A stretch of 64,000 nucleotides of DNA from Gemmatimonadaceae bacterium (GTDB lineage: Bacteria > Gemmatimonadota > Gemmatimonadetes > Gemmatimonadales > Gemmatimonadaceae): contig JAUQWM010000051.1 of assembly GCA_030835125.1 (NCBI GenBank), positions 1 through 64,000 on the forward strand, given 5' to 3'. Every line of letters starts with the position of its first letter. The first letter of the stretch is position 1. The notes below the pieces were generated by a model. That model was given only the letters and a program-made list of their open reading frames with translations, was not told where the DNA came from and did not search any database. Both the position numbers and the translations under genes were made by a program. Of the stretch, positions 23,729 to 29,389 are shown one piece after another.

Positions 23729-24217
23729 TTACGCGACGGTCACACGCCGGCAGCTTTCGTCGCCCGGCACGTGTTCGAGTGCGATCCTTGCGGCATCGGG
23801 CGGGAGCCTGTCACCGGCGCGATCCGGCCATTCGACGAAGACGATGGCGTCGCTGTTGACGATGTCGTCCCAGCCAAGATTCGTGAGATCGTCCGGTCCG
23901 CGCAATCTGTAGAGATCGAGGTGATAGACAGTTGCACGATCACCCTCATACTGATTCACGAGCGCGAACGTCGGGCTGGTCACATCCTGTGTGACTCCGA
24001 GACCTTTGCACATTGCCTGCACCAACGTGGTCTTGCCGGCGCCCAGGTCGCCTTCGAGGGCGACCACCGCTGGCGCGTCGAGCGCTGCTCCCATGCGGAC
24101 ACCCCAGGACCGAAGCTCCTCGAGAGTGAATTGGCCGGTGGTCCGGGAATCGAGAATCGGGAATCGGGAATCGGCCGTTCCCCCGCCCGCGTCCCGCGCT
24201 TTGCGGCCTGCGCTCAC
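23729..24217 (-). CDS. tsaE: tRNA threonylcarbamoyladenosine ATPase TsaE
   Basis: A 162-residue P-loop ATPase required for the t6A cycle. The Walker A motif is [13 protein letters not shown] (about residue 56), followed by the family motif [14 protein letters not shown] and the catalytic-type [10 protein letters not shown] near residue 125. The GTG at 24217 overlaps the uvrB stop (GTGA). The first ~30 residues are unlike other TsaE N-termini and are partly encoded by a heptanucleotide repeat; an internal start near TLEELRSWG cannot be excluded. Confidence 0.93.
24145..24172. repeat. Heptanucleotide repeat inside the tsaE 5' end
   Basis: Four 7-bp units: gggaatc, gagaatc, gggaatc, gggaatc. 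The array encodes part of the poorly conserved N-terminal extension of TsaE, close to the uvrB-tsaE junction. Confidence 0.8.
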
Positions 24218-26268
24218 TTCGACGCCCGGATCGCCGCAAACCCGTCCCGGCGGCGTGGAGCAGCATCCCGCTTCGCCTTCAGGTCGAACACCTCGTCCCG
24301 AAGCCTGGCGGCGGTCTCGAAATCCAGTTCGGCCGCAGCGACCTTCATCTCTTCCTCGAGCTGCTTGATCATCTCGTCGAGCTGCGCCGGATTGTACGTC
24401 GTGACGGTCTCGGCCACCTTGCGGAGCCGTTCGCGTTCCTCCTTCTCCGTTCGCGCGTCGGCCACACGGGTGATGAACCGCACCTCGTCCACGCTCTTCA
24501 GCACGCTGCGCGGGGTAATCCCGTGGTCGACGTTGTATTGCACCTGGATCGCGCGGCGCCGAGTCGTTTCGTCGATGCAGCGCTTCATCGAGTCCGTGAT
24601 CCGGTCGGCGTAGAAGATGGCGCGACCCCGCACGTGGCGCGCCGCCCGCCCGGTGGTCTGGATCAGCGACCGGTCGCTTCGCAGGAAGCCCTCCTGGTCC
24701 GCGTCGAGGATCGCGACCAGCGACACCTCGGGCATGTCCAGGCCCTCGCGGAGGAGGTTGATCCCCACCAGCACGTCGAACTCGCCCAGCCGCAACCCGC
24801 GGACGATCTCCATGCGCTCGATCGCGTCGATGTCCGAGTGCATGTACCGGACCCGCACGCCCATCTGCTGCAGGTAGTCGGTCAGGTCCTCCGACATGCG
24901 CTTGGTCAACGTCGTCACGAGGACGCGCTCCCCGCGCCGCTCGCGGAGCCGGATCTCGTTGAGCAGGTCGTCGACCTGGCCGCGCACCGGCCGCACCTCG
25001 ATCTCCGGGTCGATGAGGCCCGTGGGGCGGATGATCTGCTCGACCACCACGCCCTCGGACAGCTGCAGTTCCAGCTCACCCGGGGTCGCGCTCACGAACA
25101 GCGCGCGGGGCACCAGCGAGAGGAACTCGTCGAAGATCAGCGGGCGGTTGTCGAGGGCGGACGGGAGCCGGAACCCGTACTCGACCAGGACTTCCTTCCG
25201 GGCCCGGTCGCCGTTGTACATGCCGCGGATCTGCGGCAGGCTGACGTGCGACTCGTCGACGATGACCAGGAAGTCCGCCGGGAAGTAGTCCAGCAGGCAC
25301 GCCGGACGCTCGCCGGGCTTCCGGCCCGACAGGTGCCGCGAGTAGTTCTCGATGCCGGCGCAGGTGCCGATCTCCAGCATCATCTCGATGTCGAAGTTTG
25401 TGCGCGACTCCAGCCGTTGCGCCTCCAGCAGCTTGCCGGCGTTCCGCAGCAGCGGCAGCCGCTCGTTCAACTCCTCGCGGATCAGCGACACGGCGCGCTC
25501 GAGGCTGGGCCGGTTGGTGATGAAGTGCTTGGCGGGGTAGATCCCGGCGCGATCGAGCACCGCGATCGTCTCGCCCGTCAGCGCGTTGATCTTCGAGATG
25601 CGCTCGATCTCGTCACCCCAGAGCTCGACCCGCACGCCCTGTTCCTCGTACGCCGGGAAGATCTCCACCGTGTCGCCGCGCACCCGGAAGGTGCCGCGAT
25701 CGAACGCCACGTCGTTCCGCGAATACTGGATGTTGACCAGTTGCCGGAGGATCGTGTTCCGGGGAATCTTCTGCCCCGTCTCGAGCATGACCATCTGTTC
25801 CCGGTACTCGATCGGGTCGCCCAGGCCGTAGATCGCGCTCACGGTGGCGACGATGATCACGTCCTCGCGCTCCATGAGGCTGGACGTCGCGCGCAGCCTC
25901 AGGCGGTCGATATCCTCGTTGATCGACGCGTCCTTCTCGATGTACGTGTCCGTGGTGGGGACGTAGGCTTCGGGCTGGTAGTAGTCGTAGTACGAGATGA
26001 AGTACTCGACCGCGTTGTTGGGGAAGAAGCTCTTCAGCTCCCCGTACAGCTGCGCCGCCAAGGTCTTGTTGTGCGACAGGACCAGGGCCGGCCGTCCGTG
26101 CTGCGCCAGGGCGTGGGCCATGGTCATGGTCTTCCCCGACCCGGTCACCCCAAGCAGGGTCTGGAACCGATCGCCGCGTTCCAGTCCGGCGACCAGCTCC
26201 GCGATGGCCTTGGGCTGGTCCCCGGCAGGTTCGAACGGCGACTGCAGGGAAAAGGGGGCGCGTGACAT
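24214..26268 (-). CDS. uvrB: UvrABC excinuclease subunit B
   Basis: A 684-residue DNA helicase-like subunit of nucleotide excision repair. Walker A is [12 protein letters not shown] (about residue 41). The beta-hairpin region ([14 protein letters not shown]) that clamps the DNA strand is intact, as are helicase motifs IV-VI ([29 protein letters not shown]). A C-terminal UVR domain (about 640-675, [19 protein letters not shown]) contacts UvrC. The ATG at 26268 begins the conserved [14 protein letters not shown] N-terminus. It is coupled to tsaE downstream and is preceded by a 41-bp gap from the histidine kinase. Confidence 0.98.
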
Positions 26269-26309
26269 GACCCAAATTTATCGGGTTTTCTTCGGTCGAG
26301 CCAACCCCG

Positions 26310-27731
26310 TCAGGCCGTCGTCACCGGCGGCATGGCTCCGGCGATCGGGAGGGCCACCCAGAATTCTGTCCGGCCCGGCTCGGAGGTGAAGTCGATTTCC
26401 CCACCCTGCTGGAAGACCATCCGCCGGACGATGTCGAGCCCCATGCCCGTCCCCTCCCCCACCGGCTTGGTGGTGAAGAACGGGTCGAAGATCCGGCTCC
26501 GGATGTCCTCAGGGATCCCGTGACCGTCATCGACGATCCGCACCACGATCTGGTCGATCTCACGCCGTGCCTTCAGCGTCACCTGGCCGCCGTAGGGCAC
26601 GGCGTCGATCGCATTCTCGATCAGGTTGATCCAGATCTGGTTCAACTCGCTGCCGAACGCGCGCGCCTCGGGCAGGTCCGGCTCGATGTCCAGCGCGACG
26701 GTCACGTTCTTGTCCCGCGCCTTGCTCGCCACGATCCGCGCGGTGTCGCGGAGTCCACGCCCGACGTTCACGGGCTCCGGCACCGAGGCCCGGCCCATGT
26801 AGGTGAACCCCTTCACCGACGCGACGAGCTCGGAGATCCGCCTGGTCGAGTCCTGGAGTTCGCTCGCCGCCGACCGGACGGCGCAACAGGACGCGAGCCA
26901 GCGGAGTGCATCCTGCAGGGACTCGCCCGTCATGACCGCCGCCAGCCGGTCGAGTCCTTCCACGGTCACGGCGGTCTCCGCGAGCGAGGTCGCCTGGTCG
27001 ATGTCGCCGCCGCGCGCGTCGAGCCACTCGGCGATCGCGTCCACCCGGTCCGAGCGATCGAGGGGCGTGTCGAGGAAGGAGGGCGGGACGAGCGTGCACA
27101 TCTGCCGCGCCCCATCCAGCGCCGCCAGTTGCGCGTCGGACAGCCGCATCCCCATCAGCGCGCGCGACGCGTCCTCGGCCTCGCCCATCTGCTCGCCCAG
27201 CCGGCGCGAGCTGCGCGCGGCCGCGGACGCCGGGTTGTTCAGTTCGTGGGCCAGCCCCGCCGAGAACTTGCCTAACGACACCATCTTCTCGTCCTGCGAC
27301 CCGGTGCTGGTGAAGTGGCGGGCCCGGTCGAGCATCGTGTGCACGCAGATCGCGGTGAGCTCCGGGCACGTGATCGTCAGCTCGCGGAAGTGCTCGCGCG
27401 CCACCGTGAACAGCTCCACGTCCTCGTGGACGATCGTATTGCCGGGGGGCACCGTCATCCGCGAGTACGGGAGCGCGCCGGTCAGGTCCCCCGCATGCCA
27501 CTCCATCACCCGCCGCTTCACGCCCCCGCGCTCCACGTGGATGCTCACCATTCCCTTCAGCAGGACCGACATCCCGGGGATCGGGATGTTGTGCGGGCGC
27601 ATGATGGTGCCGGCCGCGAAGGCTTCGAACTCGCCGTGCGCGGCGACCCATTCCAGTTCCTCGCGCGGCACGCCCTTCAGCACGCGCACGCCCGCCAGGC
27701 GCTCGACCAGCTGCGGATCCACGGCGTTCAT
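26310..27731 (-). CDS. Cyclic-nucleotide-domain sensor histidine kinase
   Basis: A 473-residue soluble kinase with no membrane segment. An N-terminal cyclic nucleotide-binding-like domain (about 8-135) is followed by a dimerisation/phosphoacceptor helix with the H-box FSAGLAHELNNPASAAARS (His about residue 161). A ~150-residue helical insert comes next, then a HATPase domain with N-box NLIENAIDAVPYGG, G1 DDGHGIPEDI, F-box DPFFTTKPVGEGTG and G2 MGLDIV. Its ATG overlaps the stop of the upstream receiver/thioredoxin-reductase fusion (ATGA), strongly suggesting a dedicated pair. Whether the N-terminal domain binds cAMP, c-di-GMP or something else is not readable here. Confidence 0.93.
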   Translation of the reverse strand: MNAVDPQLVERLAGVRVLKGVPREELEWVAAHGEFEAFAAGTIMRPHNIPIPGMSVLLKGMVSIHVERGGVKRRVMEWHAGDLTGALPYSRMTVPPGNTIVHEDVELFTVAREHFRELTITCPELTAICVHTMLDRARHFTSTGSQDEKMVSLGKFSAGLAHELNNPASAAARSSRRLGEQMGEAEDASRALMGMRLSDAQLAALDGARQMCTLVPPSFLDTPLDRSDRVDAIAEWLDARGGDIDQATSLAETAVTVEGLDRLAAVMTGESLQDALRWLASCCAVRSAASELQDSTRRISELVASVKGFTYMGRASVPEPVNVGRGLRDTARIVASKARDKNVTVALDIEPDLPEARAFGSELNQIWINLIENAIDAVPYGGQVTLKARREIDQIVVRIVDDGHGIPEDIRSRIFDPFFTTKPVGEGTGMGLDIVRRMVFQQGGEIDFTSEPGRTEFWVALPIAGAMPPVTTA

Positions 27732-29389
27732 ACGGTCGCCAGGTAGGAGTGGACAAGACGAACGGTGGCCGACCCTTCACCCACCGCCGACGCAACGCGC
27801 TTCCCGGAGCCGCTGCGGGCATCACCCGCCGCGAACACCCCGGGCACGCTGGTCTCGAACAGGAACGGGTCCCGGTCGGGCATCCAGCCCCGGGGACGCC
27901 GACCGTCCCCCACCAGGTCGGGCCCGGTCAGGATGAAACCCTGCTGGTCGAGTTGCACGAGCCCCGACAGCATCTGGGTGCGCGGCGCGGTGCCGATGAA
28001 GATGAACAACCCGCAGGTCGGTTCATCGACGGACTCGCCGGTGACGTCGTTGGCGAGGCACACGCTGCCGAGCCGCGCCTCGCCGCTCACGCCCGTGACG
28101 CGCGTGTTCAGGCGGACCTCGATGTTCGGCGTGGCCTGGATCCGGTCGACCAGGTACTGCGACATGCCCGCGCCCAGCGAACCGCCGCGGAGCACCATCG
28201 TCACCCGGCGTGCATAACGCGAGAAGAACATCGCGCCCTGCCCGGCGGAGTTCGCGCCCCCGATCACCATGACGTCCTGCCCGCGCACCGCGGCCGCCTC
28301 GGTCATCGCGGCGCCGTAGAAGACCCCGGCCCCCACCAGACGGTCGAGCCCGGGGACGTCGAGCCGCCGCACCTCCATCCCCGGCGCCAGGATGACCGCG
28401 TAGGACGACAGCTCGGACCCGTCGGACAGCTTGACGACGCGGTACGGGTCATCGCGGCGGATCTCCACCACTTCCTGCGGCGCGACGATCTCGGCGCCGA
28501 ACCGGCGCGCCTGGGCCACCGCGCGGCGACTCAGCTCGGATCCCGAGATCCCGCTGGGAAAGCCCAGGTAGTTCTCGATCTGCGAACTGGTGCCCGCCTG
28601 GCCGCCCGGGGCGTGGCTCTCCACCAGCACGGTCCGCAGTCCTTCGGACGCGCCATACACCGCACCCGCCAGCCCCGCCGGCCCCCCACCGATCACGATC
28701 AGGTCGCAGAACGGCATGCTGGGCGTGAGGCGCATCCCGATCCGTTCCGCCAGGCTGCGGACGTCGGGCTGGACGAGCACCGACCCGTCCGGCAGGAAGA
28801 CGACCGGCAGTCGCTTCAGGTCCGGCGAGTGGAGCAGCGCCAGCTCGCGCATCGCCGCGTCGCGATCGAGGTCGATCCACTGGTACGGGTAGATGTTGCT
28901 GGAGAGGAAGTCCTTCACCGCGAACGACTCGGCCGACAGCGCGGTCCCCGCCACGCGCACCCCTTCCCAGCGCGGCCGGACGCGCGTGGCCCATTCGGCC
29001 AGCAGCTCGTCGAGGATCGGGTAGAGGCGCTCGGACGGCGGGTCCCACGGCTTGGTGAGGTACTGGTCGAGCCCGATCTTGTTGATCGCCGTGATGGCAG
29101 TCTCGGTGTCGGCGTACGCGGTGAGCAGCACCTTCCGCGCCTCCGGGTACAGCACGATCGCCTCGATGAGAAACTGGGTGCCCGTCATCCCGGGCATCCG
29201 TTCGTCGACCATGAACAGCGCCACGTCGGCGGCCCGCTGCTTGAGCTGCCGGACCACGTCGAGGGCCTCGGTGCCCGAGCCGACCTTCACGATGCGATAG
29301 TCGGTCCGCAGGTGCGAGCGCAGGTCACGCTCGATCGCGTTCAGGACATCAGGTTCGTCGTCGACTACAAGGACTACCGGCTTGCTCAT
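27728..29389 (-). CDS. Fused response regulator/thioredoxin-reductase-like flavoprotein
   Basis: A 553-residue three-part protein. The receiver domain (1-125) has acidic residues D10-D11, phosphoacceptor D62 (in VDERMPG), T90 and K113 (LTKPW). A Trx/Grx-like segment (about 140-215) has LPVVFLPDGS but no CxxC. The C-terminal pyridine-nucleotide oxidoreductase (about 222-553) has the FAD motif VIGGGPAGLAG and the second dinucleotide motif VMVIGGANSAGQGA. Where thioredoxin reductases carry CATC, this protein reads VFYGAAMTEA, so the redox-active pair is missing. The ATG at 29389 starts the receiver; upstream codons overlap the cox15 promoter side. It is coupled to the histidine kinase gene. Confidence 0.9.
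   Translation of the reverse strand: MSKPVVLVVDDEPDVLNAIERDLRSHLRTDYRIVKVGSGTEALDVVRQLKQRAADVALFMVDERMPGMTGTQFLIEAIVLYPEARKVLLTAYADTETAITAINKIGLDQYLTKPWDPPSERLYPILDELLAEWATRVRPRWEGVRVAGTALSAESFAVKDFLSSNIYPYQWIDLDRDAAMRELALLHSPDLKRLPVVFLPDGSVLVQPDVRSLAERIGMRLTPSMPFCDLIVIGGGPAGLAGAVYGASEGLRTVLVESHAPGGQAGTSSQIENYLGFPSGISGSELSRRAVAQARRFGAEIVAPQEVVEIRRDDPYRVVKLSDGSELSSYAVILAPGMEVRRLDVPGLDRLVGAGVFYGAAMTEAAAVRGQDVMVIGGANSAGQGAMFFSRYARRVTMVLRGGSLGAGMSQYLVDRIQATPNIEVRLNTRVTGVSGEARLGSVCLANDVTGESVDEPTCGLFIFIGTAPRTQMLSGLVQLDQQGFILTGPDLVGDGRRPRGWMPDRDPFLFETSVPGVFAAGDARSGSGKRVASAVGEGSATVRLVHSYLATV

Follow-up and report, generated by a model that had tools for sequence, protein, structure and literature searches.

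A receiver–glutaredoxin–thioredoxin reductase fusion without redox cysteines: members of a widespread clade with a putative thiol-independent flavoprotein output

The joining of a receiver domain to a protein that resembles thioredoxin reductase (TrxR) is an architecture already present in the literature: a census of archaeal two-component systems records REC-TrxR fusions, described as a 'Mycobacterium-like combination', in two Heimdallarchaeota (PMC5847659). The census assigns no function to these fusions, and its passages on them do not mention a degenerate glutaredoxin domain, the loss of cysteines or partner proteins. A literature search on the function of receiver-TrxR proteins found nothing beyond this census, and the open literature, to which the search was largely confined, subscription journals lying mostly outside it, gave no paper dealing with the lost thiols, the glutaredoxin domain, the intact sister fusions, the origin or the partners.

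The protein that is the subject of this work is encoded by a Gemmatimonadaceae bacterium (assembly GCA_030835125.1, contig JAUQWM010000051.1), and the window, by which we mean the whole stretch of DNA analysed, comprises positions 1 to 64,000 of the forward strand (64,000 nucleotides). A preliminary description of this DNA had located the open reading frame by its coordinates only; it lies on the minus strand, and its features and those of the kinase gene that overlaps it are as follows.

27728..29389, minus strand: whole protein of 553 aa, a response regulator with a degenerate glutaredoxin domain and a Cys-less flavoprotein domain resembling thioredoxin reductase (intact ORF, Pfam, 61 homologues)
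29030..29389, minus strand: receiver (REC), residues 1-120 (Pfam PF00072, 53.7 bits; D10, D11, D62, T90 and K113 present)
28724..28978, minus strand: degenerate glutaredoxin/mycoredoxin-like domain, residues 138-222 (profile match to PDB 2lqo; model pLDDT 88.6)
28925..28936, minus strand: S152-A-E-S155 at the glutaredoxin CxxC position (CPDC/CSDC here in intact relatives)
27731..28714, minus strand: thioredoxin-reductase-like FAD/NAD(P)H domain, residues 226-553 (PF07992, 113.8 bits; VIA-align Z 35 to TrxR)
28298..28315, minus strand: G359-A-A-M-T-E364 where TrxR has its CATC-Asp active site (aligned with intact relatives, which read CATCDG)
26310..27731, minus strand: partner histidine kinase, 473 aa (Pfam; CNB-like N-terminus, H162 in AHELNNP, HATPase_c)
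27728..27731, minus strand: ATGA overlap between the stop of the response regulator (RR) gene and the start of the kinase gene (translational coupling)

Pfam places Response_reg at residues 6-117, above the cut-off, and Pyr_redox_2 at residues 229-539, and gives a mere 13-bit hint of a glutaredoxin at residues 157-199. A gene that we take, from reading its translation, to be uvrB starts 41 bp past the kinase gene on the same minus strand (the two genes lie in window 24214-27731), so the RR-kinase pair may be cotranscribed with it; a divergent gene upstream of the RR gene is presumably, on the same basis, heme A synthase-like.

When contigs of GTDB genomes were scanned once with the window protein, 61 loci were retrieved, many of them from MAGs. 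Their record titles place them in Chloroflexota, Actinomycetota, Marinimicrobia, KSB1, Spirochaetota, Planctomycetota, Acidobacteriota, Pseudomonadota, Bacteroidota and Gemmatimonadota, with one in a Heimdallarchaeota MAG (L094); the alignment discussed below joins the window protein to 61 full-length relatives from these loci and from Gemmatimonadota genomes, for a total of 62 sequences. The 61 homologues are 49-66% identical to the window protein and share its Cys-less pattern, and since they keep it across many phyla, a chance origin of the pattern is excluded. Plasmid homologues from Nostoc, Deinococcus, Streptomyces and Caballeronia, annotated 'FAD-dependent oxidoreductase', also display it; a search for viral relatives returned none. 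Apparent fusions of the regulator to a kinase or to other domains in three loci (L088, L091, L106) were traced to overlapping open frames or to an over-long choice of start.

The full set of residues that characterizes the receivers of two-component response regulators (acidic pair, phospho-Asp, Thr/Ser, Lys) is found in the window protein, and D10, D11, D62, T90 and K113 are invariant in 62/62 sequences, which bears out the preliminary description of a complete receiver based on D62 and K113. The cysteines present a different picture: there is no conserved Cys column among the 62 aligned sequences, nine of the proteins are free of Cys, CxxC occurs just once, as a stray motif in L101, and the window protein itself carries three scattered Cys. 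A CATC-type redox CxxC in the NADPH domain is seen in 0/62, and a conserved Cys pair elsewhere in the homologues, the finding that had been named in advance as one that would speak against loss of thiol chemistry, does not appear in the 62. By these absences, the protein does not perform disulfide reduction via its own cysteines, and the earlier suggestion that disulfide exchange is probably impossible gains strong support.

The middle domain has a glutaredoxin rather than a thioredoxin fold. A profile of residues 136-226 built from 18 family members matches PDB 2lqo, the glutaredoxin-like mycobacterial Mrx1 (Rv3198.1), at 2.6e-10 and other glutaredoxins more weakly, and when folded alone (pLDDT 88.6), the domain finds its best structural matches in 2lqo and glutaredoxins. 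The assignment to a thioredoxin-like fold in the preliminary description thus has to be replaced, and its observation that a CxxC is missing stands. The window protein has S-x-x-S in place of a glutaredoxin CxxC or CxxS active site, and SxxS prevails in the family, with Ser at residue 152 in 60 of the 62 sequences and Ser (47), Cys (7) or Thr (4) at residue 155.

Pfam, motifs and structure all recognize, in the reductase portion, the dinucleotide-binding folds for FAD and NAD(P)H, with G234/G236/G239, GGQAG, N380-S-A, G-D523 and RVA-x-AVG-x-G invariant or nearly so. At the former CATC site, where GAAM had initially been reported, the window protein reads Y-G-A-A-M-T-E, which holds no Cys under either reading of the alignment; due to a one-residue insertion with respect to intact relatives, the counterpart of CATCDG is better read as AAMTEA. 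G359 and E364 are present in 62/62 sequences, as are R401, M409, S410, Y412, R531 and G537, and in the alignment Glu364 occupies the position of the catalytic Asp (E. coli TrxR Asp139). The residues that are fixed in the Cys-less clade but differ from those of both TrxR and the intact Grx-TrxR fusions include the replacements D to E364, E to Q384, Q to R531, R to S248 and P to L275, together with H547 and the new M409, Y412 and W502, the last located in a clade-specific insert, an extra segment of 20 residues with respect to TrxB. Such concerted replacement, fixed over many phyla, argues for remodelling of the FAD/NAD(P)H core; as judged from these sequences, the core of the Cys-less clade is not decaying. 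In TrxR, the three arginines of the HRRxxxR motif bind the 2'-phosphate of NADPH. Two of the three are absent in the Cys-less clade and R401 is kept; the resulting R-G motif is also found in most intact relatives. The NCBIfam model TIGR01292 scores 232 bits on the window protein, below its cut-off of 343 bits. As far as thiol chemistry is concerned, the Cys-less clade is misnamed where databases use labels like 'thioredoxin-disulfide reductase'.

Structure prediction, which had been proposed at the outset along with comparison to TrxR, recovered the TrxR fold. The AlphaFold2 model, generated from 39 sequences and in the absence of FAD or NAD(P)H, has a mean pLDDT of 89.2 and a pTM of 0.76, and VIA-align relates it to TrxRs at Z 35; TrxR-type ferredoxin reductases appear in the same ranking at Z about 28, below true TrxRs. 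The model lies 2.0 A from the flavin-reducing (FR) state of L. lactis TrxR (5mh4) and 7.2 A from its FO state (5mjk), and the corresponding values for the E. coli enzyme are 2.2 A (1f6m) and 7.4-7.5 A (1tde/1trb). These distances suggest that the ligand-free model adopts the FR conformation, with a predicted nucleotide site that faces the flavin.

The origin of the clade can be approached through two related architectures. In the first, a cyclic-nucleotide-binding (CNB) domain replaces the receiver before the Grx-TrxR core, which also lacks CATC; these CNB-type proteins are common in Gemmatimonadota and on plasmids. The second is represented by 17 intact Chloroflexota fusions (L213-L229), 394-501 aa long and for the most part lacking an input domain, whose glutaredoxin site reads CPDC/CSDC and whose reductase site reads CATC. 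A maximum-likelihood tree unites the Cys-less proteins, with the CNB type as the sister group of the RR type, in one clade (100/100). This clade is sister to the intact Grx-TrxR fusions (97/86), and TrxR and AhpF are placed away from it. Cys loss is clade-wide, and the simplest reading of these sequences is a single loss of both sites in an intact Grx-TrxR ancestor. The intact fusions themselves (for example, L213:5040-6272, minus strand) could be one-polypeptide thiol-reducing systems; conserved neighbors of the short intact forms, sought as a clue to an acceptor, were absent.

The association with a kinase is recurrent. Of the 45 loci whose contigs extend beyond the RR gene in both directions, 39 have a kinase next to or near the RR gene, and in 34 it is on the same strand and within 400 bp. 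An AHELNNPAAA-type core is common to 53 kinase sequences, and the window kinase has an intact His and ATP-binding boxes; the N-termini, as read from the alignment, are swapped between CNB, receiver, PAS-like and membrane segments. The CNB motif of the window kinase lacks the canonical GE...PRxA, so cyclic-nucleotide binding is not predicted for it. In one locus, to which this Pfam result is limited, a C-terminal CoA_binding_2 domain follows the kinase core and a CNB domain precedes it (L058:9667-11493), and kinases of about 610 aa that resemble it are seen elsewhere. In six loci (L061, L078, L085, L092, L097, L105), proteins of 923-1345 aa that resemble class III nucleotide cyclases, a domain assigned by eye, lie near RR-TrxR genes on the same strand and could feed CNB domains. 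No ferredoxin or flavodoxin recurs among the conserved gene clusters, and, at GC-rich loci, opposite-strand clusters of neighbors were rejected as antisense ORF artefacts.

We tentatively favor, at a little under an even chance, the interpretation of the window protein as a response regulator that has for its output an NAD(P)H flavoprotein independent of thiols, gated by phosphorylation and passing electrons to a putative non-thiol acceptor. The histidine kinase encoded by the overlapping gene would phosphorylate D62, and the ensuing change in the receiver would pass through the degenerate glutaredoxin domain, once an electron shuttle and now probably a coupling or gating domain, to the two-domain flavoprotein. 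The latter is predicted to rest in flavin-reducing geometry, with flavin and nucleotide site opposite each other. FAD would take up electrons from NAD(P)H and hand them on to O2, a quinone, a metal or a protein that carries single electrons, whenever the receiver allows it. The genome of the window also encodes an ordinary TrxR (CAIC), and a TrxR match is present in 26/26 sampled genomes, including this one; the Cys-less protein is therefore not the enzyme for housekeeping thioredoxin reduction. If this proposal is true, bacteria of many phyla have response regulators that, in place of binding DNA, directly control redox chemistry at a flavin or sense the state of NAD(P)H.

A somewhat less probable, though still quite possible, role is that of an NAD(P)H/flavin redox sensor or adaptor, which would report the NAD(P)H state by altering receiver phosphorylation or docking to a kinase or zf-UBP partner. 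The facts that fit phosphorylation-gated electron transfer fit a pure sensor equally. The same Grx-TrxR core is preceded by either a receiver or a cyclic-nucleotide domain, the kinase is dedicated, the CoA_binding_2 Rossmann domain of some kinases hints at metabolic sensing, and operon partners such as zf-UBP are regulatory rather than metabolic; however, the newly fixed residues near the active site (E364, R531, Y412) suggest chemistry, and the protein carries neither a DNA-binding domain nor any other conventional output. The preliminary description had offered both alternatives, a phosphorylation-gated NAD(P)H or flavin sensor and a reductase of another acceptor; this pair agrees with the dedicated kinase and with a receiver and cofactor motifs (FAD, nucleotide) that are fixed, and sequence accommodates the two alike.

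Loss of both redox-active pairs could also be accounted for by a catalytically dead scaffold, in which the reductase fold would persist for no purpose other than dimerisation or structure, but the FAD and nucleotide motifs are invariant over many phyla and are common to the intact, Cys-bearing relatives, which makes this explanation unlikely.

The zf-UBP genes evoke a further scenario. Such genes occur in 20/22 Gemmatimonadota genomes with the CNB type vs 8/128 others (Fisher 1.8e-16, a value that ignores phylogeny), and in genera g3 and g4 zf-UBP and the CNB type are present or absent together. In 11 of the 20 genomes zf-UBP lies, by its coordinates, within 2 kb of a family gene: in ten beside the CNB-type gene and in one (G032) beside its RR-type gene. 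In Chloroflexota the counts are 11/15 RR-type genomes vs 22/136 others (9e-6). The operon order RR-kinase-UBP is found in Streptomyces fungicidicus and in G032, and a UBP-CNB type operon follows dnaK-clpB-trxA in Rhodococcus DK17. Small UBP-type zinc-finger genes (for example, L117:10062-10415, L122:6280-6546, L045) are often in the same operon as Cys-less Grx-TrxR, and plasmid pDK2 of Rhodococcus sp. DK17 (L122) carries the row dnaK-grpE-dnaJ-cbpM-clpB-trxA-UBP-CNB/TrxR-like, a heat-stress-like island. An obligatory partnership is ruled out, however: zf-UBP is missing from the genome of the window, and is thus not essential to the RR type, and from RR-only Gemmatimonadota genomes. It is improbable that a thiol-less NAD(P)H flavoprotein, gated by phosphorylation or by a cyclic nucleotide, acts directly on a UBP-type zinc-finger protein as part of a widespread signalling module; if true, this would tie a bacterial domain related to a ubiquitin-binding one to the redox state of the cell. 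Finally, fold, ancestry and the Cys kept at position 155 in 7/62 sequences would be in line with a disulfide reductase after all, employing a Cys elsewhere or a separate redoxin, a role made barely credible by the missing Cys column, the Cys-free homologues and the scattered Cys of the window protein.

Comparison with described proteins places the favored phosphorylation-gated flavoprotein among the following systems. TrxR-type ferredoxin/flavodoxin-NADP reductases, one of which is encoded in the same genome as the window protein (L003), also have a TrxR fold without a redox CxxC, but are much more distant in sequence and have neither receiver nor glutaredoxin domain. AhpF shares the fusion of a redoxin-fold N-terminal part to a TrxR core, but keeps CPHC, has no receiver and is placed apart in the tree; its model, TIGR03140, gives 147.6 bits on the window protein, where CPHC is lacking, against a cut-off of 502.9. 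Low-Mr TrxB has the fold and the FAD and nucleotide domains in common with the window protein, at about 28-35% identity, and differs in that the latter has no CATC, Glu instead of Asp, an extra 20-residue segment with W502 and two added N-terminal domains. The REC-TrxR fusions of the archaeal census have the same broad receiver and TrxR-like architecture (PMC5847659). The stand-alone Grx-TrxR fusions of Chloroflexota (such as L213), members of the sister clade, share the Grx and TrxR core but keep both CxxC motifs and have mostly no input domain and no conserved neighbors; these intact fusions and the Cys-less clade form a before-and-after pair for the change from dithiol enzyme to signalling flavoprotein.
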